A stretch of 64,000 nucleotides of DNA from Alentia gelatinosa (Eukaryota; Annelida; Polychaeta; Phyllodocida; Polynoidae). The stretch spans positions 80,735,193 to 80,799,192 of the forward strand of contig OX465579.1 in the NCBI GenBank assembly GCA_950022655.1, written 5' to 3'. Positions 1 to 60,409 of the stretch are shown here, piece after piece. The position numbers were made by a program, and so were the translations under genes. The first letter of the stretch is position 1, and each line of letters starts with the position of its first letter. Below the pieces are notes generated by a model that saw only the letters and a program-made list of their open reading frames with translations, was not told the origin of the DNA and ran no database searches.

Positions 1-2040
1 GGCATCTCCGATTGAAGATGACCGTCCTCAACATTCTCTACACTACCAATATTGCGTGCTCTGAATTGGGGCGGGCGAATGCATCTACATTATCATCAGG
101 AACACTTGGGTTGATGATTAATGATGAAATCCCAAATGATGAAGTTCGTATCTTTCAGTATTCGTCTTCAACTGAATAATTCAACTTGAAATATCAGGAG
201 TTTGCAGCACATGTTTCAGCGTGAGGTGGTGTTGAATCAATTGAACCATATGGGGCAGTTAGTTTTAATAAAGGAGTAATCTGGGAATCTGAAGTGGGTG
301 AGGAAAATGATAAAGTGAGTTAGAGTTATGATGCATAACGACACAAAGGGGAGGGAGTTGATGTATTAGAACTGATACCAGGTAATTATATAGGATGACC
401 TGACCATGCTTTAGAAGCTGCAAAATTAGATGAGAATTGAGGTCTGTACGGAACGAGGCATTTAGGCAAGTTCCGTGCAAACCGCTATTTCCCATCGAGT
501 TTTGTAGCTTCCACAGCCTGGTAAGGTCGTTCTATATTTATCATATACCCGAAATTGATAGAATCCTACAATCAATATTTTTGTCTATGCATATGGAACA
601 GGTTTCCATATTTTGCTGTACGGAAAACTGTTCCCTATGGTATTTTTACATATTATGGCAAAACAGTGCGTTTTTACAGTATTTGGGTCATTGTAGGGAA
701 AACGTACAATGGACAGTTTCTCTACCTTCCTACATTCTATAGATGCTCATAGTATTTCTATTTACCTGACAGAGTTATATTTGGTATTCATGGATAGAGA
801 ACATTATAATGTGACAGAAAATGTATATTATTAGGGCTTTCTTTCCCACCCTTGGGTTTGGAATCATTGAAACCTCTAATAACCTGTAAATTTAACCATT
901 CTCTTAGAAATATATCAAAAACTCACCTTATAAGTCAGTGTATCACTTATTACCAACCAAATAAATACAGATATTCACATTTACAGATGCTTCAGGTTAT
1001 AATACATACAAACTCCGGCTGATTCAATTAATTTATTAAGTCTCTAGAGCCTTATGAGAATATTCAGAAGGGAACGTTCGTTATGTAAATTTTAAAGCTG
1101 TATAAAGATATTCACATATTTCTCAAAATGTTAGATAACTGCAAATTTTACTATGGAAAGATTGGTCAGAATAAATCCTGAAAATATTGGCTTCCTGCTA
1201 CAAAAACCAACTCATGTATTTAGTATTTAACCATAGTATATTGCATCTCATTTTATACTTCTTCTATATCGAACGTTCCTAAATCCTAAAATACTTCTCT
1301 CCAAATTTTGTTTAAATCAAGCTTAACCACACCATTTCCATGGGGCCCTATTATTATTTATACTCATATGAGAGACCTTGCATTTTCCATGGTGTTAGAT
1401 AATATACCTTGCTATACTAAGAGCATTTTTTTAAATGGAAATTTATCTTCACTTGTGTTTAAAAAATTCTTAAGAATAACAGTTGCATACCAAATATATT
1501 CCCTGAGAAGGTAAGGTATTTTTCAAAGGTTGTGCCAAAGCTGAACCCCTGATAGAAAATGAGTATAGTTCCATATTTCATAAATACACATATATGTATG
1601 GAAGTAAACTACGTGTTCTTATAAGAAATAGGATTTATCCAACAAATAGCAATCTTTTTTTTCTATTCTGAAGTTCCAATTGTACGTTTTTCAGTACAGA
1701 ATCATGGTTGTACAATTAAGGGACGAATCTACTACTAATTCTTGTAATACAAGACTCACTGCGGCTCACAGGGTAGCCATTGCCATCCTCCACTGCAGAT
1801 CACGATAGCACCGCTGAACACAGCGTGCCGAGCCTCACGGTTCTCACCTAAAAACACAATATCCCATCACTTACCTCCCGAGCTCCACTCCCGCCACCAC
1901 CAAATCCTACTAGCTCTACCACCCCGATTCATTACTAACAGACACCGCTCATTCAGTACCGCGGCAGCATGAGATCTGTAGGGAGTTCCTCTTTCCTTTC
2001 AAGCTAACACGTACCATGCTTGTTGATCCCCAATAACAGA
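1..2040. other. non-coding, AT-rich; no gene seen
   Basis: Only short reading frames with no recognisable protein similarity occur here. The sequence is AT-rich with many stops in all frames and becomes more GC-rich after about 1740. I see no repeat, RNA gene or splice pattern that I can defend. Confidence 0.6.
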
Positions 2041-18178: not shown

Positions 18179-19531
18179 TCAAGCATCTTCTTCCTCTTGT
18201 AAGTTACTAACTAAAAATTCTTTTACTTTAAACTTAAATAAATCGCCTCCGTCTAATACCTGTATTTCTCGTGGCAAAGTTTCCCATATTAAGTTTCCCC
18301 TATAAAGTGGTGACAATCGATATTTTTTTGTTCTAGGTCTGTGTATTTTCAACCTTATTTTATTCTCTCCCCTTGTTCTAGCTACTTGATTGCATAACAC
18401 ATTTTTCTCATTTTCTACCCACCATCTTATCGTGCTCATTAAGTGACTTGCTCTTCTTAGTCGTAGAGGTCTAATTTTACATAACTCGTATATTTCCTCT
18501 AAGTGTAAATCCTTAGATTTTTTCCATCCTATAGCAGTTCTTAACGCATTATTAACACACACCTGTAGTTTTCCTCTCAACTCCTTACTCATACAATAGT
18601 AGACTAATTCTGAATACTCTATTATTGGTAATAACATATGTTTCACTATTTTCAGACTTGTCGCATCGTCCAGGCAGAACCTTATCTTTCTTAATTTGAA
18701 CAACTTGTGATTAAATTCATGTGTAATTTTCTGAAAATGGCCTGCAAAACTCAATTTATTATCAAACAGTACTCCCAAGTATCTATACTTTGAAACAGCC
18801 TGCAATATGTCTCTTCCTATCCTTACTGTTTTTTTTTCTATACCCTTTTTGTTACTGAACCACATTGTTTTCGTCTTCTTACAGTTTATTTTTATAACAT
18901 TATTTTTCGTCCATCTATCTATAACTCCTAAATCATGCTCAGCATTGCGAACAATGTCTTCCTGTTTATTTCCACTTACTATCAAAACAATGTCATCCGC
19001 ATAAAGGAATATTTTCGAATAAATCAAGTTTCTTGTTATATCATCTATAAAGATAAGGAACAGCAGTGGCCCTATCACAGACCCTTGTGGTACTCCACAT
19101 ACAGTTGTTGCTGGTTCTGATATTATTTCATTTAATTTAGTTTGCACTGTTCTATTTTTTAAATAATTATCAATTAAATCTACTAAATCTGAGTTTATTC
19201 CCTTGTTCCGAATTTTATTTACAACTATTTTATGGTTTACACTATCAAAAGCTTTTTGAAAATCTATATACAGGGCTAGTACAGTATTCGTTTTATCTAA
19301 TTGTAATAAAATTTCATTAAGGACGTAAAATATTGCTTGGGATGTTGATTTTTTTGGCCTGAATCCGAATTGCATTCTGTTTAATAAATCATTCTCTTGA
19401 AGATAATCAATCATTCTAGCGTGTATTACTTTTTCAAAAATTTTTGATATCGTTGATAGAACGGTAATAGGTCGCCAATTTGTGAACTGACTCATGTCTC
19501 CCCCCTTTGGTAAAGGTGTTATAAAAAACAA
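18179..19531 (-). CDS. LINE reverse transcriptase, N-terminally truncated
   Basis: This frame of about 450 codons encodes the RT of a non-LTR retrotransposon, which copies element RNA at a nicked chromosomal target. Visible motifs are FRPKKST at about residues 57-63, YIDFQKAFD at 88-96 (first catalytic Asp), GVPQGSVIGPLLF at 146-158, FLYADDIVLI at 175-184 (catalytic YADD) and KYRYLGVLFD in the thumb at 248-257. The C-terminus has the late W-E-LP-E motif common to Jockey/CR1-type proteins. The frame is uninterrupted, which suggests a fairly recent insertion. It has no genuine start: the frame opens from a stop at 19549-19547 and the protein is missing its endonuclease and early RT portion. It is therefore a dead-on-arrival copy even though it is open. 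Confidence 0.93.
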   Translation of the reverse strand: MFFITPLPKGGDMSQFTNWRPITVLSTISKIFEKVIHARMIDYLQENDLLNRMQFGFRPKKSTSQAIFYVLNEILLQLDKTNTVLALYIDFQKAFDSVNHKIVVNKIRNKGINSDLVDLIDNYLKNRTVQTKLNEIISEPATTVCGVPQGSVIGPLLFLIFIDDITRNLIYSKIFLYADDIVLIVSGNKQEDIVRNAEHDLGVIDRWTKNNVIKINCKKTKTMWFSNKKGIEKKTVRIGRDILQAVSKYRYLGVLFDNKLSFAGHFQKITHEFNHKLFKLRKIRFCLDDATSLKIVKHMLLPIIEYSELVYYCMSKELRGKLQVCVNNALRTAIGWKKSKDLHLEEIYELCKIRPLRLRRASHLMSTIRWWVENEKNVLCNQVARTRGENKIRLKIHRPRTKKYRLSPLYRGNLIWETLPREIQVLDGGDLFKFKVKEFLVSNLQEEEDA

Positions 19532-39213: not shown

Positions 39214-42021
39214 CATCAGAGCGAGGCTGAGAGCGCGCATGCAGCGTCCCCTTTGACCTCCAGCCCGGTGTAGCCGTCGTGCCACTTTGCTAATGGAAAC
39301 TTGTCAGAAGGAAGCCGAGACTTCTCTTGTCTTTCCCTGCCTTCCCGACATCCCCCATCGCTTCAACATTAGGGATTCTTCGTCTACGTTGTGGAAGTGT
39401 CTCACTCGGCATCAGTGATTCTCTAACGAAAGCTTCTTTTGAAATCTTCGCGGGTTATAACCTCTCGTTGTTGGACTCAGTAAGCGTGACAAGACAGACA
39501 TTATGAAAAATAGAGTCATGTCGTGTATTACCCCTCATATACTATAGTCCAATTACTTCTACGTAAAATATAGGGAGAGAGTAGTTTCAAAATATGATAG
39601 ATACAAGATGTGGGGGGAATTGTACTGTAATAAAAAATATTTTCATAATACAATGGAGTAATCACAAAACAAATGTGAATAAAATATGTACAGAGAAGAC
39701 ATTTTCATCAAAGCAAAGAAATCTTGGTGTATCTATAACAAACGGAAATGAATAGACTGATAAAAAAGATCATCATGTAGCTAGGTTGGCTTTATATATA
39801 CTCAATAACGAACCTAAAAAGCTCAGAATTAATTCATCCGGAGGTAAGGAAGGTATAGAACACATGAGGGGCACTGATGGGTGTCTGGCTGGGGACACAA
39901 TCTAACATACGCCTTCTTATAACACACCTTGGGTGTGGACCACTTTGAACAGTCCCTACAAGCCCAGCGTCGGCAGTGAGACTCTTTTACTCTTGCTGTC
40001 TGGCTCGGCATAGGTAAGTGGTCATTAGCTAGGGTCGAGTCTCCGGAAGGAAAGCTATCTTGATGTTGTCTCGTCTTAATGATAATTTTTGACATTTGGA
40101 AACACACGCTGAGACATGAGTTTCCGGACTAATCTTAGAGTCTAAAAGCAATTTTTGATTGCAGCATTGTGGGCTGTATGTAAGCCTTGTCTAGTACCGT
40201 TATGTATCACTAGACCGCTACTAGTTAGTGCTACCTTCCTCCATTACGAAACAAAATGATATGGAAAAAATGGAAGATGGATAAAACCGGCAGCACATTC
40301 CAATGATAGTTGTCGTAGAAGCATTGGCCAGCGCCAATAGACAAATTTGAACCAGGAAACTGTCAGTTCGTAGCCTAATTGGCACAATTGGCACGAATAC
40401 AGTTTCCCGATACCGTATATTATAGCTCAGCCCAATTTTGGACTTGGCATTAGTTGAAGCCTCCTGGGACTTGAGAGAAAAGATCACTGCCAGTTCACTG
40501 CCGATGCAAATTTAGCTTTCATTTTATATTCATCGACTCCACGACTACCAAATGCATCCAAGGTTACAATTTGTTAGGGGATGGTGGTCATCGTTAGACC
40601 ATCATTGTCCAGCACATTAACACCAACTCCCTTCTACACGGCAAAAGCTCTATGAGTTGGATGTGAATTGGCGAGTGGCATGACCTCCTCCATGGTAATG
40701 GGCTATGCCAGGCATCTGAGGCATACAAGTGGCGACTGCAAGGTCCCAAGCCGCAGGGCATGAGGCTCGGATAGGAGTGCAGAAGTCGGGGGAGTCTCTG
40801 CCATTGGTACTGGAAGAGGTTTCACTGCGACCTCTACCTAGCGAATAAGTATTAGAGTGGGAATAGAGGCAGTGATTCTGTGAGAATGCTGGATCGGCCA
40901 CAGGGCCTTGTATAAAAGGGCTTGTCGAGGGAGGGGCTGCAAGGTATGTAGGCTTTGGATTGAGTAGGGTTTAAAGGAATATGAGTCGCAGTACTCGAGA
41001 GTAGGATATGGGAGTGAAAAGACACAATTTAAAGGAATATTCTTTATATTTAGTGGCATCCGGTCGGAGTGATTCGTTGATTATTTATCTCTTCTGTAGA
41101 TTATGTCCTGTGGAATTCTTACAAATATTTTCATGAAATACTGGTGTGACCTGGAGGTGATATACGGGCACATTGACGAACGGTTCTTTTCAGAGTTGCT
41201 CCAGCGAGGTGGCAGTTAAAGTGCCTACTGCGCTGTTTGGATCGGTGAGCTGTTCTTGGAGCTGCTCGCGCTGCTGGTCGGGCCCGGGATCATCAGCCAT
41301 TCACAGGGCAGCGATACGACCGCGCCGTGGCGCTATAAGCTCGGCCAGAGATAAGCGACCGGGGCTGTGCAAATCTCACCCGTCAGCATGGGCGGTGACT
41401 GAAGGCAGCCGTGAAGGGCTAGAGGTAGGGGGATGGGGATGGGAGGGGGTGAGTAAGGCCAGCCGCGGCCACGTGCATGTGTAATAAAACGATCCAGGAT
41501 CCCAGCCAGATTTAGAGACGTAATAAAGCGTGAACACAAGGAGCACGGCCGCCTGACAGCCAGGAGGGGTTGGGGGTCGGGGTCGGGGGAGTGGGTGGAG
41601 TCGACGTGGCGGCTGGAGAAGGTTGTGGGATGTGTGAGGAGGGTGGCAATAACATTGGTCACTTGTGCCAATATATACAGACTAAATATAACTAGCATAT
41701 AAAATTCATTAGAAAGGATAGAATAAAGCAGAAGGCGGGCAGGAGAAGTAGAAAATATTAGGTGAGAGTAACAAAAGAATGAACAGACTGAATGAAGGAA
41801 AAGGCAAGCTGGAGACCAGTGTGATTATTGATCTTTTTTTATGCAAATCATCCAAACAGATTTGAATGACGGGTTATGAGTTACTGATGACAATATTTAT
41901 CTCACAGCCAGGTGCGTGATTCTGGCATTATTTGACAGCATAGATCCATTCCCAAGCATAACTAGAACCCGCGGTCTCTCACTAGAGCCGCAGGATGCAG
42001 CCTCAAGTATGTTATAGTTGT
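39214..42021. other. non-coding; no gene seen
   Basis: Frames of up to 121 codons overlap on opposite strands without domain signatures. A consensus TATAAAAG is at 40911-40918. The 41180-41480 stretch is GC-rich. The 41700-41830 stretch is purine-rich. Confidence 0.5.
40911..40918 (+). promoter_or_regulatory. consensus TATA box, no gene attached
   Basis: TATAAAAG followed by GG in a locally GC-rich setting is the canonical TATA consensus. A donor-like AAG|GTATGT lies about 31 bp downstream. Without a recognisable downstream frame this stays a motif match. Confidence 0.2.
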
Positions 42022-42381
42022 CCCTACTGTTGCAGATCCTGCAAGCCAAAGCTTGGTGGATGCAGATAATTTTCCCTACTGCTGCAGACTCTACAAGGCA
42101 AAGCTTGGTGGATGCAGATAGTTCTCCCTACTGCTGCAGACCTTGTAACCCAGATCTTGGTGGAGGTACACAATACTCCCTCCAGCTGCAGACCCTAATA
42201 TCATAGCCTGGTGGAGACAAACATTTCTCCCTACAGCTGCAGACCCTAATATCATAGCCTAGTGGAGACAAACATTTCTCCCTACAGCTGCAGACCCTAA
42301 TATCATAGCCTAGTGCAGGCGAACAGTTCTCCCTACAGCTGCAGACCCTGCAGGCCATAGCATGGTGGAGGCAAACATTTC
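42022..42381 (+). repeat. minisatellite, seven 51/52-bp units
   Basis: Units starting CCCTAC(T/A)G(C/T)TGCAGA begin at 42022, 42074, 42126, 42178, 42229, 42280 and 42331. The first three periods are 52 bp and the later ones 51 bp. Units 4, 5 and 6 are nearly identical (CCCTAATATCATAGCC), indicating recent local duplication within an older array. The 51-bp units keep a reading frame, so a minus-strand frame shows a cysteine-rich peptide repeat (VCSCREKC); this is a by-product of the tandem DNA. Confidence 0.95.
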
Positions 42382-47394: not shown

Positions 47395-48286
47395 CAGTAG
47401 AACCCCTCTTAAGGGGACACCCTCCGTTCCGAGCCAACTGTCCCCTTAAGCGGGGTGTCCCCTTAAGCGGGGTTTTCAGTCTGCCAATGGTTATACAATA
47501 GAGAATACCTACATAAATGGAGGAAACGATGGTTATTAGGTTAAAAGGTTTATTGATAATATATAAATAAGCAAATACATATCAATTATACAATATAAAT
47601 AAATATAAATGTATATAAATTAAAAATAAATAGAATCGGTGTCGGTGTCGTGGGTGGTGCAGAAACTGTTCAGGTCGATGTCCAGGTCAATGTGCAGGTC
47701 AACTGTCCAGGTCAATGTCCCCCCGTAACTTCTGAGAGAAATCAGCGGCCGCTTAAGCGACTCACCTTGAGCCGCCCAGAGCCGCGAAGGCTCACTGAAT
47801 ACCGCACCTTCAAAGCCGCCAACCCGCCCTGAACCGCCCACCGCTAATCTGTAAGCGGGCCTCATACCCAGCACCTTCGGCGGGCGCGAAAATCAGCGGG
47901 TCTATAAGAGACTCACCGTGAGCCGCCCTGAGCCGCAACGGCTCACTGAATACCGCATCTTCAAAGCCGCCAACCCGCCCTGAACCGCCCACCGCTAACC
48001 TGTAAGCGGGCCTCTAACCCCCTACCGTCAACGGGTCCGAAAGTCACTGGATTTTCAGTGTTTTTGATATGATGTCCCTCCAAAACTGTCTTCTTAAGAG
48101 GGGTTTTTATGCATTTCTGTACCGAAAAACTGTCCCTTAAAGCGGGGTGTCCCCTAAAGCGGTGTGACCCCTTAAGCGGGGTTAAAATAAACTCTTAATA
48201 GAGGGGAAAATTTCCGTTCCGAGCAAATTGTCCCCTTAAGCGGGGTGTTCCCTTAAGCGGGGTGTCCCGGAAGAGGGGTTTTACTG
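47395..48286. mobile_element. non-autonomous pogo/Tigger-like DNA transposon, 892 bp
   Basis: The element begins CAGTAGAACCCCTCTT, and the reverse complement of its other end reads CAGTAAAACCCCTCTT. Both ends are flanked by TA (47393-47394 and 48287-48288), the expected target duplication of Tc1/mariner-pogo elements. CAGTA-AACC termini with subterminal CCTTAAGCGGGG words are typical of pogo/Tigger families. Subterminal CCCCTTAAGCGGGGTGTCC words recur at both ends and at 48120-48180. The interior has no transposase, only an AT-rich part and a GC-rich tandem duplication, so it depended on a transposase supplied elsewhere. Confidence 0.88.
47760..48052 (+). repeat. 151-bp tandem duplication inside the pogo-like element
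   Basis: Two GC-rich units (starting ACTCACC at 47760 and 47911) share long identical stretches, such as AAGCCGCCAACCCGCCCTGA. Minus-strand frames through them give the same MGGSGRVGGFE peptide twice. This follows from the DNA duplication and is not evidence of a protein repeat. Confidence 0.88.
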
Positions 48287-51277: not shown

Positions 51278-52305
51278 GTAATCCTGCCAAGGCCTATAAT
51301 AAGTAGTGCCAAGGTCTTTATCAACCAGTGAGATTGGCCCATGCCTGTGCTGGGTGCTGCCCTGCCGGATCTTCCTGTAAATCATCGGGTGCCCTTGCGG
51401 CGTGGGCTAACAGATTAAGGGCCGCCCTGCCGATATGACCTTGGTGGAATGAAGGGGGCGGACTCTGCCCCGCGTGGGGCCAACGGCGCTGAATAGAAGG
51501 CATTTGGTCGCTTCTGGTCAGCCTTAACGCCCTATCCGCTCACTACACCCTCCCTACACCCTCCCACCCACCAAAGGTCTACCATACAGCAACCCGGCGC
51601 CCACTGGCACATCCACGAGCCAGGAGGCGCTGCTGTTCGCCGCCGACGGGCTCCACGTCCCTCAAGTTATTTTTGCCCTACGTCAGGCAAAAACCTATCT
51701 TTATGGCGTGACCATTTTACACTTTATGGCCTCTTCTCTTCTGGGCGCGATCCTATTGGGAGGGATTAACTGAACCCGGTCCCCCAAGAGGGGATTATAG
51801 TTCGAGGAAACGACCTGTCTGGTCGTATCGTTACTTATTTCAAACGTCACCGCGGAGGCGGATCTGAAATGCGGATTGGTAATAAAAAAAAGGGCATATT
51901 CAGGCAGGATATTTTATCCAACCGTAAAGCATGAATAGAGCTTAGGATTAACAAAACATGGTAATTTTCTAGCCTTTACCTCCATTCACCTACACCCTGA
52001 ATCAGTGTAATAAGTTAGATATTGAATTATAATTCCAGTTTCGCATGGACAAGACACAAAAATAAGCCAATCCGTGGTCTATGCTTATTTTATTTTTATT
52101 ATTATTTTTTTTATTCAGCTTAATAGCATACATTCACCAATGTATTAGGCGTTTTTACATGTAGCTTTGATCAACAGTATATACAAATGCTGAGACTCCG
52201 CAGGAGGTCATGCATCAAAACTAATAAGGACATTACAGGACAATCACATGTGGGTACCACCAGTTCGTCGCTGAATTTATTTCATCATTGATATACTTAA
52301 ATCTA
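51272..52305. other. non-coding; no gene seen
   Basis: The first half is GC-richer (51350-51660) without a recognised frame; the rest is AT-rich. It ends at the outer B2 repeat of the retrotransposon. Confidence 0.5.
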
Positions 52306-52398
52306 GATATAAGTTAGCGACTAGACGGCTTTCTATAATGATAATAATAACAACAACATACAGGAAATTGGATTGGCGGAAAATCACATACATCGCAC
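52306..52398 (-). repeat. split direct repeat B2 (3' end of element)
   Basis: The outer 93-bp copy, whose outer edge marks the 3' boundary of the element. The plus-strand start GATATAAGTTAGCGACTAGA is shared with B1. Confidence 0.93.
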
Positions 52399-52415
52399 TT
52401 TATTCAATAAATACT

Positions 52416-52615
52416 AAAACTAAAACTTTCACAGTGAAAATGTGTTTTCAGCTCAGCAACACAAGCGTGACTGGCGTGACCGTTTGGAAGCGTGACGTAT
52501 TAGCACGCGGGGCGTTGCCGGGCTACAAATTGTTGGGAGTAACCCCCCTGGTTACCCCGTTAGCGACCTCGCCTCTGCCGCAATTATATAGTGTATACGG
52601 CTATAACTGGATATA
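52416..52615 (-). repeat. split direct repeat A2
   Basis: The 3' copy of the A repeat. It overlaps B1 by about 6 bp and is separated from B2 by a 17-bp AT-rich spacer (52399-52415). Confidence 0.93.
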
Positions 52616-52702
52616 AGTTAGCGACTAGACAGCTTTCTATAATGATAATAATAACAACAACATACAGGAAATTGGATTGGCGGAAAATCACATACATCGC
52701 AC
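52610..52702 (-). repeat. split direct repeat B1
   Basis: A 93-bp repeat with one difference from B2. It sits 28 bp beyond the recombinase stop codon. Confidence 0.93.
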
Positions 52703-52730
52703 CAATAACCAGCCAATAACAATTGACCAG

Positions 52731-53686
52731 TCACGTAGTCAATTCCTTCAAACGGCTAGCTACAATGGAGTCTTTGCTAAGAAGCACAGACTGCGAATCA
52801 TGAATATACAGTTCCACCGCTTTGGACTTCCAGTTGCCCCTACGTTGAATGTCTACTAGAGACATCCCAACACGTGATGGGAAGGTTGTTCCCCCATGCC
52901 TCAAAGAGTGGGTAGACACACCAGAAATACTCAAACCAGCCTTAAATGACAGGAGCTTAAGTCTAACATTGAAACAGTTATAATCTAGGCGACAAAGTTT
53001 CCCCTTGTAATTCTCGAGAAAAAAAAACTGGTTGGGGTAATAAACCCTAGATTCCAACATCTTCTTTATAAACCTACATGGACATAGGGGGGAGTCAGCA
53101 ATGGTCCTTAAAAATATTTTTACAGGTTCCTTCCCAAATTAGGCGGTTTTGGAAGACCTTAAAATCACGGTGACAAAGTCTGAAACTTGTAGCGAGTGTA
53201 CAGATTTCACTACATGTGAAACTCTTAACAAAGCCCTGAAACATAACAAGAGGGCACTCCAAAAAACTACATCATTATAGTCTGATAAATCCAATAATAC
53301 ATATAATTTTAACAAGTCTTCAGGGGTGAATGGGTATCTCTCTACCTTAGGGGTAGAAAATAGCCTCTCAATACCCTTCAATGTCTGAGATATAAGAAAA
53401 TCCCCCGTGATGGGTGGAAACCCAGATTCTTTTGTTCAAAAGACACTGCAGATAAGTAGTTCCTTATGGAAACTGGTTTCTTTTTATCAGATAAATACGT
53501 TAAAAATAGATTACAGCCCCGACTTGTGGCAGGGAACGGTTTTAAAGAAACTAACCTGCAAAAATCGTAATAACAATTTAACTGAGTACCCCTGGCTCGA
53601 GCGGTATTAGTTGAAATCGCAGATTTCTGGAGAAAACGTTGTTTTGACTCCAATTCAAGGATCAATCTACCTGGAAAAAACAACAC
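52731..53686 (-). pseudogene. tyrosine recombinase of the Ngaro-like element
   Basis: The integrase that joins circular element DNA to the chromosome. The N-terminal SAM-like part is at 53686-53378 (ARGTQLNCYYDF, TYLSD, IRNYLSAV). The catalytic part continues in another frame from about 53400 (FRALLRVSH, box I Arg). It crosses an in-frame TAA at 53141-53139, where SKT-stop-FG replaces the usual SKTxQFG, consistent with a C-to-T change of CAA. It ends with HSLRHGG (His-x2-Arg) and W-S-AV-LY (nucleophilic Tyr). One frameshift and one stop make it a pseudogene, although all catalytic residues remain recognisable. It starts about 45 bp after the RNase H stop. Confidence 0.9.
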
Positions 53687-53730
53687 ATTTCTTTTTCCTT
53701 CAGAACTTTTTCACACTTTCCGATATTTTT

Positions 53731-54165
53731 TTAATTGTCTAGACGAGACAGGCAGTCGGCTAACACATTTCCCTCAGACTTGATGTAAGTCATGAAAAAT
53801 TCAAAATTGTACATAAAACTGAGCCAAAATAGTTCCCTCAGCCAGCCCATACACACTTTATTACGACTTCTCCCTGTATTCAGCATGGCAAGCACTTGCA
53901 TGTTGTCTGTAACTACATGCACTTTCCGATCTCGAAAATGTATTGCCCAACATTTAAGTCCGACCACTACAGGCCAGAGCTCCAATACATTTATATTTGA
54001 GGTGATACATTCAATATCTGGGGGTGACGTTTTATGTCCGTTACCAAGACAAACTTCAACATTTTTATCCCAAAAATCGTAAAGAAAATCACGCCCACAC
54101 CACCCCCCAAAGCCTGAAAAGGAAGAATCGGTGACTACTGGTATCTGAAAACAATCTTTCAGAAT
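53731..54165 (-). pseudogene. RNase H domain of the Ngaro-like pol
   Basis: It continues the RT frame directly after the TGA at 54168-54166. Visible catalytic-type residues are Asp in VVTDSSFSGFGGW, Glu in NVLELWPV, Asp in VHVVTDNMQ and Asp in GNVLADCLSRL, the usual order of RNase H. RT and RNase H are normally one polypeptide in this group. The intervening TGA therefore probably disables this copy, unless it is read through. It ends in TAA shortly before the recombinase frame. Confidence 0.88.
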
Positions 54166-55398
54166 TCAACTTTTACCATTGAACACCCTAGTCAATTCTC
54201 TCCACCACGATAAGTCAGCTATCAATGAATCGCTCAGGGTCACCGTTTTCCCACGTGGTGTTACTGCGCACAAATCGAATAGGCGCCTGCTACATGTGCG
54301 ACCCCCACGGACAACACTCGAACAGAAGGACATTAATCCTCCCAACCTCTCCAAGGATTTTTTAGTCACAAATCCCTTTTGAAAAACGCTGTCTATTTCA
54401 TTCTCTAAGCGATTAACCTTCTCCAACAGCAGAGAAATTGACATGTTGACAGTGTTAATTTCAATCCCCAAGAAAATACATGTTTGACTTGGGTGAGTAA
54501 CTCTTTCTTTCGCTACGATAAAGCCTAAATACTCCAGTATCCCAGTGAGCCTATCCCTGTCTGTTAGGCACCCCTCTTCACTCTCAGAAATAACCAGAAA
54601 ATCGTCAAGGTAGTTAAAAATGCAGGATACTCCAAAGTGTTTCGATACAGATACAATGAAATTTGAGACTGAGTTGAAAATATTAGGCGCGCATTTCAAA
54701 CCAAAACACAATCGCCTATTGCTGTAATAAGCCATACCCGTGCCATCGTCCCACGCAAAACCCTGAAACCTAACCTGGTCTGGGTGTATGTTGATAGAAC
54801 GGTAAGCCGAGCGAATATCAACCACAGAAAAAAATTCTTTACCCTTCAAAATGTCGCAAACATCGTTTACTGAATTGTATCTAAAAGATTTAAAAGTATC
54901 AGCCATGTTATCGTTGATACTATTACCCTCAGGCCTACTGCAGTCAGTGATGGGCCTAAGTTTCCTGTTTGATTTCACAACTGCGCCTAACGCGTGAACG
55001 CATTGAGGTCTATCGTCAGCTTTAGATACCTTTCCCTCGCCTAACTCATTTAGCAAGAGGTCGGTCATTTCATGACAAAATTTATCGTCAGTTATCGAAT
55101 CATAGTTTTTACATTCATAAGAAACATCGCAAGTATCGTCTACAATTTTAAAACCATTGCAAAAACCTTGCCTCAGGAATTCTGTTTCTTCCTCCCCAAG
55201 ATCCTCAACAATTTCAGGGATTTCCAAAAGGGGAATAATACGGCAAACTTTTAATTGAGAAACATTATTCCCAACATAGTGTACACATTTACACAAACCA
55301 TCATAACACAAATTTTGACGAGAAAAAACGTTCTCAACATTGTTATCGGTTAAACTGACGTCCCTCTCCAATTCCGAATTGATACAATCAGCACGCAC
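54166..55398 (-). CDS. Ngaro-like reverse transcriptase (pol, first part)
   Basis: The coding frame is open from the gag TGA (55498) to a TGA at 54168-54166. The coordinates given start at the first usable start-like codon (GTG), 410 codons. RT motifs are LRPITDCSRPEGNSIND at residues 147-163, SVVDIRSAYRSI at 191-202 (Asp194), FGLKCAPNIF at 232-241, NYLDDFLVIS at 262-271 (catalytic YLDD 263-266) and an FLGIEIN thumb motif at 309-315. YLDD and the surrounding order place it with tyrosine-recombinase retrotransposons. The N-terminal part is Cys-rich and not assigned. The protein copies element RNA in the particle. No frameshift is visible inside it. Confidence 0.93.
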   Translation of the reverse strand: MRADCINSELERDVSLTDNNVENVFSRQNLCYDGLCKCVHYVGNNVSQLKVCRIIPLLEIPEIVEDLGEEETEFLRQGFCNGFKIVDDTCDVSYECKNYDSITDDKFCHEMTDLLLNELGEGKVSKADDRPQCVHALGAVVKSNRKLRPITDCSRPEGNSINDNMADTFKSFRYNSVNDVCDILKGKEFFSVVDIRSAYRSINIHPDQVRFQGFAWDDGTGMAYYSNRRLCFGLKCAPNIFNSVSNFIVSVSKHFGVSCIFNYLDDFLVISESEEGCLTDRDRLTGILEYLGFIVAKERVTHPSQTCIFLGIEINTVNMSISLLLEKVNRLENEIDSVFQKGFVTKKSLERLGGLMSFCSSVVRGGRTCSRRLFDLCAVTPRGKTVTLSDSLIADLSWWRELTRVFNGKS

Positions 55399-55497
55399 GC
55401 CAGTAGAAACGTCTTCAACAAAATCTAGGTTACCACAATTGATACATTCCTCATCGATATTTGTGTCAGCGCTATTAATAGCGTACGTTACATTGTA

Positions 55498-56483
55498 TCA
55501 TTTTTGAGTGACCTGTTTTTGCTTACCGTTAGCGCACTCAAAAGCAGCATGGCTGTTGCTGTGACAAGTATTGCACTGATGACGGTATTTACAAGACTTG
55601 AAAGAGCAACCTCCTGGAGTCTTATTGAAATTAAAACAAAATCCCTCTGAAGATTTACTATTGGTTTTTCCTTTAGACTTTCTACTTGCTGATGCTGCAA
55701 TTGTCCCCTCATAAGACAAAAAACGTACAATCTCAGCCGGATTAACATCCGAGAAAACGTTCAAACCATCACATTTTGCCTTTTCTTTGAAAGAATTATC
55801 GTAACAGATGAGAGCATCTGCTGTGAATAACCTAGAATTCGCTTTCTCTGAAATCAAAATCATGTGGTTTATAAAACCCGATACGTCTTTCCCAGCATCT
55901 ACTAGTTTCTCCAATATCTTAGAGTTTACTAACATCAATCTTTCAAAAGAATTCAATTTCTCGCTCTTATTCAAGTAATTCTTTGAATCGTACACAGATT
56001 TTTTACCTTTTTTCCTGTGTTTCGAACTGTGTGAGGAATCATCAGAAGTAGCTGAATCGCTACTATCGCTTGTGTCAGTCGAAAAGTCTCTTTTTCGTTG
56101 ACTTCCAGAAACGCACAGTCTTGACTTTTGCCTATGGCGCTGCTTAGACGAACTTCCATAATCCGCTATTGAGTCCTTTTCCCTCAGAACCTCAGTAATG
56201 TCTCTCACCGCGTCTGTCACATTTACAAGTTTCAAAACAGTAGAATTAAGTAAATCCTCCATCAACTCAATCTCTCCAGTTCTGGTGTAGACTCATCACG
56301 ATTTTGAAAATCCTGGGATGTCTCCGCAGCTGCCCCCGTCTGGTCGACAGACTCCTCTAAATCACCCAATGACGATTTTGGGGGTTGTACCTCCGACACA
56401 ACCGATTTAGAGGGCGTACTGCCCGAAATCCTCAAGCCACGACTTTGGGATGAAGAGGCCCCAGACCTCTTATTTCTCCCCAT
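55498..56483 (-). pseudogene. Ngaro-like gag with CCCH and CCHC zinc motifs
   Basis: Two overlapping frames make up the structural protein. A first frame (56483-56262, 73 codons, Ser-rich, starting at an ATG directly after A1) overlaps a second (56265-55498, 255 codons) by 4 bp. A one-base frame change between them is likely, though a real overlap is possible. The second frame has an Arg/Ser/Asp-rich region at residues 38-90, a helical stretch at 100-185, and a C-terminal CCCH motif (Cys210, 220, 225, His229; spacing 9-4-3). This is followed by a retroviral-type CX2CX4HX4C knuckle (Cys231, 234, His239, Cys244). Tandem zinc motifs of this kind occur in gag of DIRS/Ngaro elements and bind element RNA. 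The frame ends in TGA, and the same frame stays open into pol. Confidence 0.85.
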
Positions 56484-56489
56484 CTTGGA

Positions 56490-56689
56490 AAAACTAAAAC
56501 TTTCACAGTAAAAGCGTGTTTTCAGCTCAGCAACACAAGCGCGACTGGCGTGACCGTTTGGAAGTGTGACGTATTAGCACGCGGGGCGTTGCCGGGCTAC
56601 AAATTGTTGGGAGTAACCCCCCTGGTTACCCGGTTAGCGACCTCGCCTCTGCCGCAATTATATAGTGTATACGGCTATAACTGGATATA
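56490..56689 (-). repeat. split direct repeat A1 (5' end of element)
   Basis: This 200-bp copy is about 97% identical to 52416-52615. It lies a few bases upstream of the first gag ATG at 56483, so it should hold the element's promoter or RNA start in the usual model for these elements. Confidence 0.93.
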
Positions 56690-56866
56690 TACATATCTGG
56701 CAATTCTTGTATGCCTTCCTTTTGATACATATCATAAGTATGCAGTATAAATAATGTTCGGGCGCACTGCGCCCGTAGTGAATATTCGGGTGCACTGTGA
56801 CCATCGGGTCAATTGGTACATTTAGTAAGTATCTAAAATAACAGTATTTTTTGTATTTAGGTATGT
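56690..56866. other. short GC-word repeats next to the retrotransposon
   Basis: Two related words of the form TTCGGG(C/T)GCACTG(C/T)G occur at about 56757 and 56788, the first forming a GGGCGCACTGCGCCC palindrome. They may belong to the same element as the adjacent foldback at 56867. Confidence 0.4.
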
Positions 56867-57032
56867 AATAATAAGAAAATGTAGTGACTGATCCAGAAGG
56901 GATGCCATTCTCGGCCTTTTATGCCATAAATACGTCCCTCCGCCTGCTGCGTCGGGACGTATTTATTTCATTAAAAGACCTCGAACGACCATCCCTTCGG
57001 GCTCAGTAAGGTTCCACGTTTTCTCTTATTAC
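56867..57032. mobile_element. ~165-bp imperfect palindrome (foldback/MITE-like)
   Basis: Arms beginning AATAAGAAAA on the left and reading AATAAGAGAAAA as the reverse complement of the right end share GAAGGGATG and TAAATACGTCCC in the same order. They fold around a centre near 56945. A GAGGCGAAGCCGAGTGCAGT word follows outside the right arm. The structure fits an old inverted-repeat element with no coding capacity. Confidence 0.65.
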
Positions 57033-57111
57033 TGTGCGAGGCGAAGCCGAGTGCAGTAGCGAGCAGACATTGCTGGAATGCGATAAACAACATGACTAAC
57101 TCGAGTTTGGT

Positions 57112-57543
57112 TTAGAATTTATCCTACCCCGTATAAATTACTTCAGCAAATTAAGAAATGCCATAAAACTCACCGATAATCAGTGATAATCATTGGTCGC
57201 TTTTCAAATGACGTCAACTGTATCCCACTAGAGCGATAAATTTTATTTTCCTGCACCGCACACCAAATACAGTCCGCTAATGTTAAGCCTATGGAGTTTT
57301 TTTTATTAGGGGTAGGATAATATCACAAGGTGGAGCAGAGTGACATCTGTAGCGGAAGATGACGAATGGCATATAAACAAGTAAATGAAATTGAGTGATG
57401 TTTAGATTTTATCCTATCCTGTCATATGTTTTTAACTTCATATGTCACCAGTGTCATATAAATAATTTATGGCATAACTGTGGCATACAGTCTCACCGTG
57501 TTAAGTCTACGGATATATATATCAGGGGTAGGATAATCTTGTG
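57112..57543. repeat. two related units with TATCCTACCCC / GGGGTAGGATA ends
   Basis: Unit 1 runs from ATTTATCCTACCCC (about 57116) to GGGGTAGGATAATA (about 57311). Unit 2 runs from TTTTATCCTATCC (about 57407) to GGGGTAGGATAATC (about 57527). Each unit is itself bounded by inverted ends, and the parts before the right ends (ACAGTC...GTTAAG.CTA.GGA) are similar. It looks like a duplicated small inverted-repeat element. Confidence 0.55.
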
Positions 57544-60409
57544 TATCTCGGTATCTAGTTTGTCATATTATACGTTATATATCACCTAAGATTTCCATTT
57601 GGAACATAAAAGAGATATACCTTTAGTGGCACCAAACGTAGTTAATATAGGGACAATGATTTATTCCCGAAGTAATAAGGCACTATGAGATATGACTTGA
57701 GCACAACTAATGACCTGGCGCTCACGGCTGGTTAGGTGGGCACCGAGGTGGGAGGTGACCCGAGGACCTCACAGGCGCCCCCTAGCGTCGATCCGCGCCG
57801 GAAGCGAGCCAGGAGGATCAAAGGGATGTGGATCATGCCGCCCCTACTGAGCACACACAGGTGGGCCACAGGTGTAATTACACACCTAGAGATAGCGGAA
57901 CACATACCTGCATGCTGGCCGTCTCTGCCGAACCATGCTGATTTATTGTACGACTCCAGTGACTGGAATTCATGAACTCGGATAATATAGATCACTACTT
58001 TGACATATACATTAAAGACTGCATTGGCATATATATGTTGGATACATCACTACAATTGATATTATATCTATGTAAATAATTCGATTCACCAGTCCATTGA
58101 CAGACAAGTGAATTGAATCATCTGCGGGTCCTTAGATCGAGGACATATTTCCAAGACGATACCAGGGAAGTGTCTCATAGACAAGGTGTTGCATAAACCT
58201 GTTGGGTTGAGACGATCACTGATGGCTTGAGACCCATTTGAATGTAGCTGTGCCATACAAGCTTAGTCCGAGAGACTTTGACTGCCTAGCAGACAGTCAG
58301 AGAGCACAACCGCTTATTCCCATAGTACAAAATATCAGTTCCTTGGTTCTCTGTAATCCTGTCAATGTTAGTGCATGTTTATGCTCCCTTACCTTCAGAA
58401 ATGTATAATAATTCCTTTTTTATGATTAAACTCCTGTTTTGTTCCTTTGTGTTACTTTTGGGAGCCTTTTTTGTACAACTCATTTAACCACATTTTACAA
58501 CTTCCTACTCATGTCGGCCATATTTGATAAACTGGCAATCCCGTGTGTGGGATGTGCTGCACTTTTGAAACTGCCATTCTCTTATTTTTGGCGCCTGCAG
58601 AATGCATTGACATGGATTTTACAAACACTGGCTGTTCTATTAGTTAGAACTAATGCAAAAGTATAAAATTACTGTCATTTTACTGCATTTTGCCTCAAGA
58701 AACTGTCTACCACAAAATCAGAAAGATTCAACCTATATCTATATGAAAAATGGCTGCTGAGCTGAGCTGTACCAATCTGGTCCACCATTTAGCCCAGGGC
58801 TATATTGGACTGCTCTCTGACTGTCTGCACCGCTTGACAGTCAGAGCCTCTCGAACTATACATGCTCAGATAAGATACTTCAACTATGCAACGGAAACGG
58901 TCATCAACGATCGTCACGACTGCAAAATACTTCCCAGACTTTCCTTCTGACAGGATTCTGTAATTACAGAACCATATTTGAAATCGAATCTTTAGGACCG
59001 ACCTTAATGAGACAGACGTGGTGGTATATCTAAATATCTGCTAACATTCTTTAATGGATGACATCGGGTTCAATACTCTCGGAAATTCACCCATGCTGAC
59101 TCATTGAATTTAGACACATATGAATTTAATTCCGTCGAAAAAGATACGAAGCAGTAATACATTGTGGAAATACCGGGTGCGCACTGATGCAAGTATTGGC
59201 GTCGACTTGAAAACTACTTCAAACTCAGGTATTATTAGATTATCTCTACAGAGAATCTAATTGGAACTCTGGCGTTATTAGCGTCAATTGTCCACCTCTA
59301 TTGTGTCATACATATATATACTGTACCTCTTGAGTGGCAGGCTTATACCGGCTCGTCCCCACCTGTATCATTAAAACTTGAGTACCCTGAGATTGCCTGC
59401 CAGTATTCTGAACAGAAACACACTCCCACAACGATTTCAGACGCCCTACGCATTTAAAACTCTGTTGAAGCCGTATGAACATAGCAAATAGGGGCCAGAC
59501 ACAGGGCCTCTGCACAGAAAGTGGAATGGCATTCAAAGCCTTCTGTTTACATTCCTTCACCTCTACACGCTGTCACCCTCGCAAAGATTTACACCCCCTG
59601 AAAATTGACTCCTCCTTGTAGCGGCCTCAACCTCAAACACATCCGTCCACGAAAAAAGATGGACATTCATCCTTGTGAATAAAACGAGAGAGAGGAAGAT
59701 GGGAGGGGGTGAAGGGGAGCAGAGACGGTCTGGCTCCAGTCTGAGGGGCCACTTATCAGCTGACTACAGCTCTATACACCACCTCAGTCACGCTCCCCAC
59801 GACCGACAAAAACCACTTAGTAGGCACCTAATCAGTGTTTCAATCGTTTGCCGTTTGCATCGCTTCGCTTGGGCGCCTCCCTTTGAATGGAAACCCAAGC
59901 CTGAACTGCTGGTCCATACCCCAGACTTGGTCTCTCTTAAGGTATTTTTTATTCATTGTCTCGCCTTTGGACGCACATATATTGTCGCTCCAACCCGGCT
60001 GGCTGAGTTAGAATGGTTCGGTGGAGATGAGATAGCGTGAGATAGATGGTAGACGAAATGTGTGATAGGGTCACTGAAGCGTAAACAGTGCATCGGGGCT
60101 CACGCCTGGCAAGGATCTGCCCTACTCTGGATCTTCTACTCTGTCGTAAAACAACCTGATTTGTCCTCACCCACAAAATATATTCCACTCGCCGCGTCTC
60201 ACGATTTAAAACTAAGGTTCAATGATCCTCTCTTCCCCCACAAGATTCACACTCTTCGTCTCGTAAAAAGCGCCCAACAATCACCTCCGTCACAAAACCT
60301 CTTGCCTGCTCCATATCGATACATCACCCCATACCACTCTATTCTCGCCCCTCTTCTTCACACACACAATCACTCTTCTTAGCTACTAAACGCAATGCTA
60401 AATTGAATA
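57544..60409. other. non-coding; no gene seen
   Basis: Frames around 57736-57975 and 59675-60040 show no recognisable domain. A weak third copy of the 43.9/50.1-kb repeat lies at about 59240-59290. From 60150 the plus strand becomes pyrimidine-rich. Confidence 0.5.

Follow-up and report, generated by a model that had tools for sequence, protein, structure and literature searches.

Layout of the element

We analysed a 64,000-nucleotide stretch of the Alentia gelatinosa genome (assembly GCA_950022655.1, contig OX465579.1, positions 80,735,193 to 80,799,192 of the forward strand), hereafter the window, in which a retrotransposon with split direct repeats lies on the minus strand at 52306-56689. 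A reading of the letters alone, without database searches (the sequence-only reading), had described it as a near-complete Ngaro-like element. Our analysis makes it very probable that this is a decayed copy of an Ngaro-like tyrosine-recombinase retrotransposon, of a kind that would integrate via a circle at a TAT core. Positions are those of the window, relatives at other loci of the same genome are labelled L with a number, and published sources are cited in excerpt throughout. The element was delimited by repeat comparison and junction alignment as follows:

52306..56689, minus strand: whole element, A1-gag-pol-YR-B1-A2-B2 (YR, tyrosine recombinase)
56490..56689, minus strand: A1 repeat, 200 bp, 97% identical to A2 (6 differences)
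52416..52615, minus strand: A2 repeat, 200 bp
52610..52702, minus strand: B1 repeat, 93 bp, one difference to B2
52306..52398, minus strand: B2 repeat, 93 bp
52399..52415, minus strand: A2/B2 spacer, 17 bp, ending in AATAAA (52399-52404), a putative polyadenylation signal directly before B2
52613..52615, minus strand: TAT core of the internal B1/A2 junction; further copies at 56687-56689 (left end) and 52309-52311 (right end)

The A1/A2 alignment is ungapped over 200 bp and holds exactly six differences, five of them transitions, where about six had been counted before. Repeat comparison likewise bore out the single difference between the 93-bp B repeats, the order A1-ORFs-B1-A2-B2 (ORFs, open reading frames) on the minus strand and the 17-bp spacer. 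The repeats do not extend as inverted terminal repeats: the terminal repeats are direct, and none of the four inverted pairs found in 51500-57800 joins the element ends. An LTR retrotransposon has two identical long terminal repeats (LTRs), a DDE integrase and a protease; here the repeats are split, and the six window pieces scanned gave no match to a DDE integrase or protease.

The coding regions, all on the minus strand, are listed in the order of transcription.

55498..56483, minus strand: gag, ATG start at 56483, frame break near 56265, open piece 55498-56265
55534-55647, minus strand: Cys/His motifs in gag, which we take to be of the CCCH and CCHC types
55498..55500, minus strand: TGA between gag and pol, both in one frame
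54166..55497, minus strand: pol, reverse transcriptase (RT) part, YLDD at 54601-54612; Pfam RVT_1 E 1.6e-14; in-frame TGA at 54166-54168
53731..54165, minus strand: pol, RNase H part, TDNMQ at 53896-53910; RVT_3 E 7.4e-4, under the Pfam cut-off; in-frame TAA at 53731-53733
53378..53689, minus strand: tyrosine recombinase, N-terminal piece; 57% identity in tblastn with the L015 recombinase
53139..53381, minus strand: tyrosine recombinase, middle piece with the first catalytic Arg (LLRVSH, 53214-53231)
52731..53060, minus strand: tyrosine recombinase, C-terminal piece with HSLR (52890-52910) and Tyr (YIHDS, 52794-52808); Phage_integrase E 0.0017, under the cut-off

Gag, RT with YLDD, RNase H and tyrosine recombinase, the four domains named earlier, are thus present as segments in that order, with matches to RVT_1, RVT_3 and Phage_integrase (the last two under cut-off). 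Of the description as near-complete, the full set of repeats and domains stood, but gag, pol and recombinase are all interrupted, the recombinase being split over two frames with one further stop; no gene is intact and the window copy is dead. The open recombinase of L015 passes the Phage_integrase cut-off (E 1.5e-7), and over 13 rows the catalytic H, S and R are invariant and Tyr is kept in at least 90%. One protein search with gag yielded 603 candidates, none of them a homologue at E ≤ 0.001, and the predicted fold of gag is of poor confidence (mean predicted local distance difference test, pLDDT, 39.9).

A Pfam scan of six pieces of the window gave no methyltransferase match at E ≤ 1, in agreement with the sequence-only reading. 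The TAA at 53731 aside, the pol frame continues to 53662, and the recombinase frame extends upstream to 53689 or beyond; since the two overlap, there is no room for a methyltransferase after RNase H. In their overlap at 53669-53689 the pol frame gives MCC and the recombinase frame NVLF. In L015 and L017, whose recombinase frames are open, no AUG precedes the N-terminal domain.

Relatives in the same genome

The 1.23-Gb assembly that contains the window (101 contigs) was searched for other copies, as the sequence-only reading had proposed. A 601-base RT query gave 17 matches, the window and 16 others at 15 places (L004 and L005 are parts of one copy), and all 15 places were examined together with their flanks. 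B1-A2-B2 was found in 10 of these 15 and A1 in 9 of the 10, a recurrence which shows that the layout is not a matter of chance. Nine relatives carry 1-5 A1/A2 mismatches per 200-214 aligned bases, gaps uncounted (the L012 alignment has 11 gap columns), against 6 per 200 in the window. L020 lacks A1, only a single B occurs in L010 and L011, and the full repeat set is missing in L018, L019 and L023. L010 is truncated at its 5' end and ends in one B at TATA, while L009 (3768-3967 onward) is without gag and the first part of RT, the gap starting at the 3' end of A1. Grouped by identity, the full copies fall into about three families.

Searching with B1-A2-B2 gave 42 genome matches; among the 30 loci listed, 17 were solo AB units, defined as exactly one A hit, one B hit and no ORF hit. 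One rearranged relative (L040 1497-3288, with the overlapping L049) has the order A-B-gag fragment-recombinase-B-A-B.

Junction core, target and empty sites

The junction analysis covered 28 insertions (the window, 10 copies and 17 solo units); L034, L038, L040/L049, L043, L046, L047, L051 and L052, which are split, partial or rearranged, were left out. Aligned over the window and the ten copies, the internal B1/A2 junction reads AACT-TAT followed by ATC, GTG or GTA. The 6-bp B1/A2 overlap (52610-52615), put forward earlier as an exact junction, is present, but the core common to all junctions is TAT and not six bases. The overlap is best read as the 3-bp core plus a chance match: the ATC beyond TAT at the right end of the window element (52306-52308) is probably host sequence that matches the element by chance.

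TAT-like strings served to locate the ends, two left ends of full copies being set by hand, and solo left ends were counted only if they read TAT. Among 26 readable right ends the core was TAT in 25 and GAT in one (L017); two insertions, L050 and L053, have lost the end of B and gave no right-end reading. The base after the right core, which was not a condition for locating ends, was A in 26/26, whereas the expected rate of A after TAT in 43.6 kb of flanks is 31% (p 6e-14). Since the host continues with A after TAT in every readable right end, the target is TATA. On the left, 22 ends were counted (TAT 21, TAG one, in L012), and the preceding base was A in 15, T in 6 and C in one; the solo left ends dropped were L033 (GAT), L039 (AAT), L035 (unclear) and the truncated L037 and L048.

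Empty sites could be compared at two insertions. The solo unit L025, whose A is 98% identical to that of the window, sits in a host repeat with five empty copies (L028, L039, L015, L042 and window 400-682; 72-84% identical), whose joint reads GGGTATAT. In the filled site the left end is CGGT-TAT-ATCCAG and the right end AACT-TAT-ATAG, and one base beside the core also differs from the empty sites. Near the full copy L012, whose left end is TAG, an empty copy of its host repeat reads TTTT-TAT-ATAACC. Judged from these alignments, one copy of the core becomes two at both L025 and L012, with nothing else duplicated or lost; on the standard recombinase reading, one TAT would come from the circle and one from the target. 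The expected absence of target duplication was accordingly seen at L025 (five paralogous places) and L012 (one nearby copy).

A putative cycle and the origin of solo AB units

AATAAA stands at the end of the A2/B2 spacer in nine of the ten copies compared (L009 reads AATAAT; L020 is outside the comparison), with one base between it and B2 in L021 and L022. An RNA using this signal would lose most of B2, which B1 could supply, and an annealing model mentioned in PMC6681497 fits this. We propose that transcription would start in A1 and end soon after AATAAA, before B2. The internal B1A2 unit, which duplicates the joined ends, may then serve reverse transcription as the source of the end pieces missing from the RNA and allow a circle to close; at the B|A junction of that circle the recombinase would cross TAT with the TAT of a host TATA, leaving one TAT per end. 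Later loss of the stretch from A1 to B1, via A1/A2 homologous recombination or the recombinase itself, would leave a solo AB unit.

Solo units might in part have another origin. By acting on the two identical B|A junctions of a full circle, the recombinase could split it into one A-ORFs-B and one A-B circle, the latter integrating as a mini-circle. The solo units (17 of the 30 loci listed) outnumber full copies among those loci, all 15 whose right end is complete have A after TAT, like the full copies, and L010 ends in a single B at TATA. Yet homologous recombination between A1 and A2 yields the identical sequence, the cited part of PMC8547959 reads isolated AB repeats in that way, and L010 is truncated at its 5' end; we consider mini-circles an unlikely source.

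Classification

An RT search of a wide database found 185 homologues at E ≤ 0.001, with a best identity of 53% among the 120 listed, and the open L015 recombinase found 26 homologues there. Six recombinase-match rows and six RT-match rows sit on equally long contigs. Viral contigs and phage records held no RT relative. The window itself contains, at 18179-19531 (minus strand), a 450-aa ORF with a further RT domain (RVT_1 E 5e-36), presumably of the long interspersed nuclear element (LINE) type.

Ngaro elements, known from zebrafish, sea urchin, fungi, cnidarians and molluscs, share with the window element the order A1-ORFs-B1-A2-B2, gag, RT-RNase H, a tyrosine recombinase and the lack of a methyltransferase (PMC4157794, PMC9210276, PMC3783388). 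PAT and DIRS1-like elements are also tyrosine-recombinase retrotransposons, but bear a methyltransferase, and DIRS1-like elements have inverted repeats instead of direct split ones. The Pfam Dam methyltransferase had no match at E ≤ 0.01 in any of 38 aligned pol rows (the window and 37 homologues), while the same genome holds 61 Dam matches. In a phylogenetic tree, six of these 61 Dam-bearing pols formed one group with 100/100 support, well apart from the remaining 29 rows (the pol of the window copy, three relatives from the same genome and 25 selected homologues), and they carry a YIDD box where the window pol has YLDD. Many Dam-bearing pols of the genome are open frames of about 700 aa without a stop inside the match, and are better preserved than the Ngaro copies described here.

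These results bear on the possibility of a PAT-like element that has lost its methyltransferase. Its split repeats would be alike, and such a loss has been suggested for a Caenorhabditis briggsae lineage in the cited part of PMC4157794. Against it stand the 38 pol rows without Dam, the absence of a methyltransferase after RNase H and the separate position of the six Dam-bearing pols, though these may be DIRS1-like rather than PAT; we regard it as very improbable. A VIPER-like element is less probable still. VIPER has been described from kinetoplastids, whereas contigs of up to 181 Mb and the RT assumed to be of LINE type would fit an animal host. The likeness lies in the repeat order (PMC6681497) and in the methyltransferase, which VIPER lacks as well (PMC4157794). 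Placement as Ngaro-like is supported by the structure of the element, the published definitions (PMC4157794, PMC9210276, PMC6681497, PMC3783388) and the missing methyltransferase. The kind is already known, and the window element is a new member of the Ngaro group that is unusually clean in detail.

Several points weigh against an Ngaro-like element integrating at TAT. The TAT counts are partly conditional, as ends were found by TAT-like strings; four left ends are not TAT (L012 TAG, L033 GAT, L039 AAT, L035 unclear) and one right end is GAT (L017). Empty sites are known for L025 and L012 and not for the insertion in the window. The RNase H and recombinase of the window copy score under the Pfam cut-offs, and the tree was built without a named Ngaro, PAT, DIRS or VIPER sequence. 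The cycle is read from sequence, no circle, transcript or transposition having been observed.

Differences from known systems were also found. The Xenopus Ngaro has a hydrolase ORF between recombinase and B1, which the window element lacks, and the window element departs from Ngaro in that its gag and pol share one frame with a UGA between them and its gag had no hit in the above search. Cafeteria burkhardae Ngaro types 1-4 (PMC8547959) are alike in repeat layout, solo AB repeats and copies without ORF1 (L009 here); the shared TATA target is a difference. Models of DIRS1-like elements place integration at a 3-bp circular junction and involve no duplication of the target; 23 of 28 annotated elements begin and end with NTT (PMC3266345), as against the TAT core here.

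The UGA between gag and pol

The end of gag is held by 11 of 16 copies (window, L010-L017, L019, L021), all of which read AAA-TGA with the pol frame in phase. That frame is open to a conserved C..G.C.C motif in eight of the 11 and broken in L010, L012 and L014. The UGA is followed by a conserved block in 10 of the 11 copies, which is absent from L021 and contains the following feature:

55470..55483, minus strand: short inverted repeat CGCTA-TTAA-TAGCG, 100% paired in 10 aligned copies

For the window and L015, identity over the 36 nt that follow TGA is 75% at each of the three codon positions, whereas at third positions it is 38% in gag and 44% in pol. The 63-codon linker after the UGA has, for the same pair, nonsynonymous (dN) and synonymous (dS) divergences of 0.61 and 0.56; beyond the block this pair has no codon periodicity, and in other pairs dS is modestly above dN. 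Ranked by plain identity against 1464 comparison windows, the stretch from TGA was not outstanding for window/L015 (355 as high) and window/L017 (338), fairly high for window/L011 (86), high for L019 with the window (16) and with L015 (8), and among the lowest against L021 (1348 and 1372).

It is possible, though we hold it only tentatively, that these families make Gag-Pol by readthrough of this conserved UGA, aided by the conserved RNA block of about 36 nt with its small hairpin, a retrovirus-like recoding device. Alternatively, and with about an even chance of being right, the UGA simply terminates gag, and translation of pol begins independently at codons that vary or are not AUG. The missing codon periodicity of the window/L015 linker agrees with such an independent start, as do the loss of the block in L021 and in-frame linker Mets in four of the eight open copies (codon 33 in L011 and L017, codons 11 and 30 in L019, codon 45 in L021). 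It is harder to reconcile with the lack of any Met common to the copies, the other four (window, L013, L015, L016) having none before the motif at the conserved pol N-terminus, or with a pol frame open right from the UGA when the remaining two frames of the five copies counted contain 2-14 stops. Simulated neutral change keeps the linker open in 7-16% of runs, so this openness is only suggestive.

The small hairpin had no covariation, its sequence being almost invariant in the 10 aligned copies, and a longer RNAalifold stem, in which two-sided change occurred in only one of 16 pairs, was set aside; neither is good structural evidence. An AUG overlapping the gag stop (AUGA) was rejected as a restart for pol, the frame closing after few codons in the copies shown. 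Within the literature collection searched, no paper pairs Ngaro with readthrough; the gag-UGA-pol arrangement may still be in print.

Other features of the window

Just beyond the 5' end of the element lies an inverted repeat (56917-56975) whose 27-nt arms are 81% complementary and separated by 5 nt. Tandem arrays occur at 47754-48035 (151-bp units) and 42014-42349 (51/52-bp units). Rfam (at gathering scores) and tRNA scans of the window gave no match.

Significance

Most of what is known of Ngaro elements concerns their layout, and their mode of integration has been inferred. Because full copies, solo units and paralogous empty sites occur together in this genome, the sequence itself reveals TAT as the junction core, TATA as the target and no further duplication. 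The arrangement gag-UGA-pol bears on how such elements could set the ratio of Gag to Pol.

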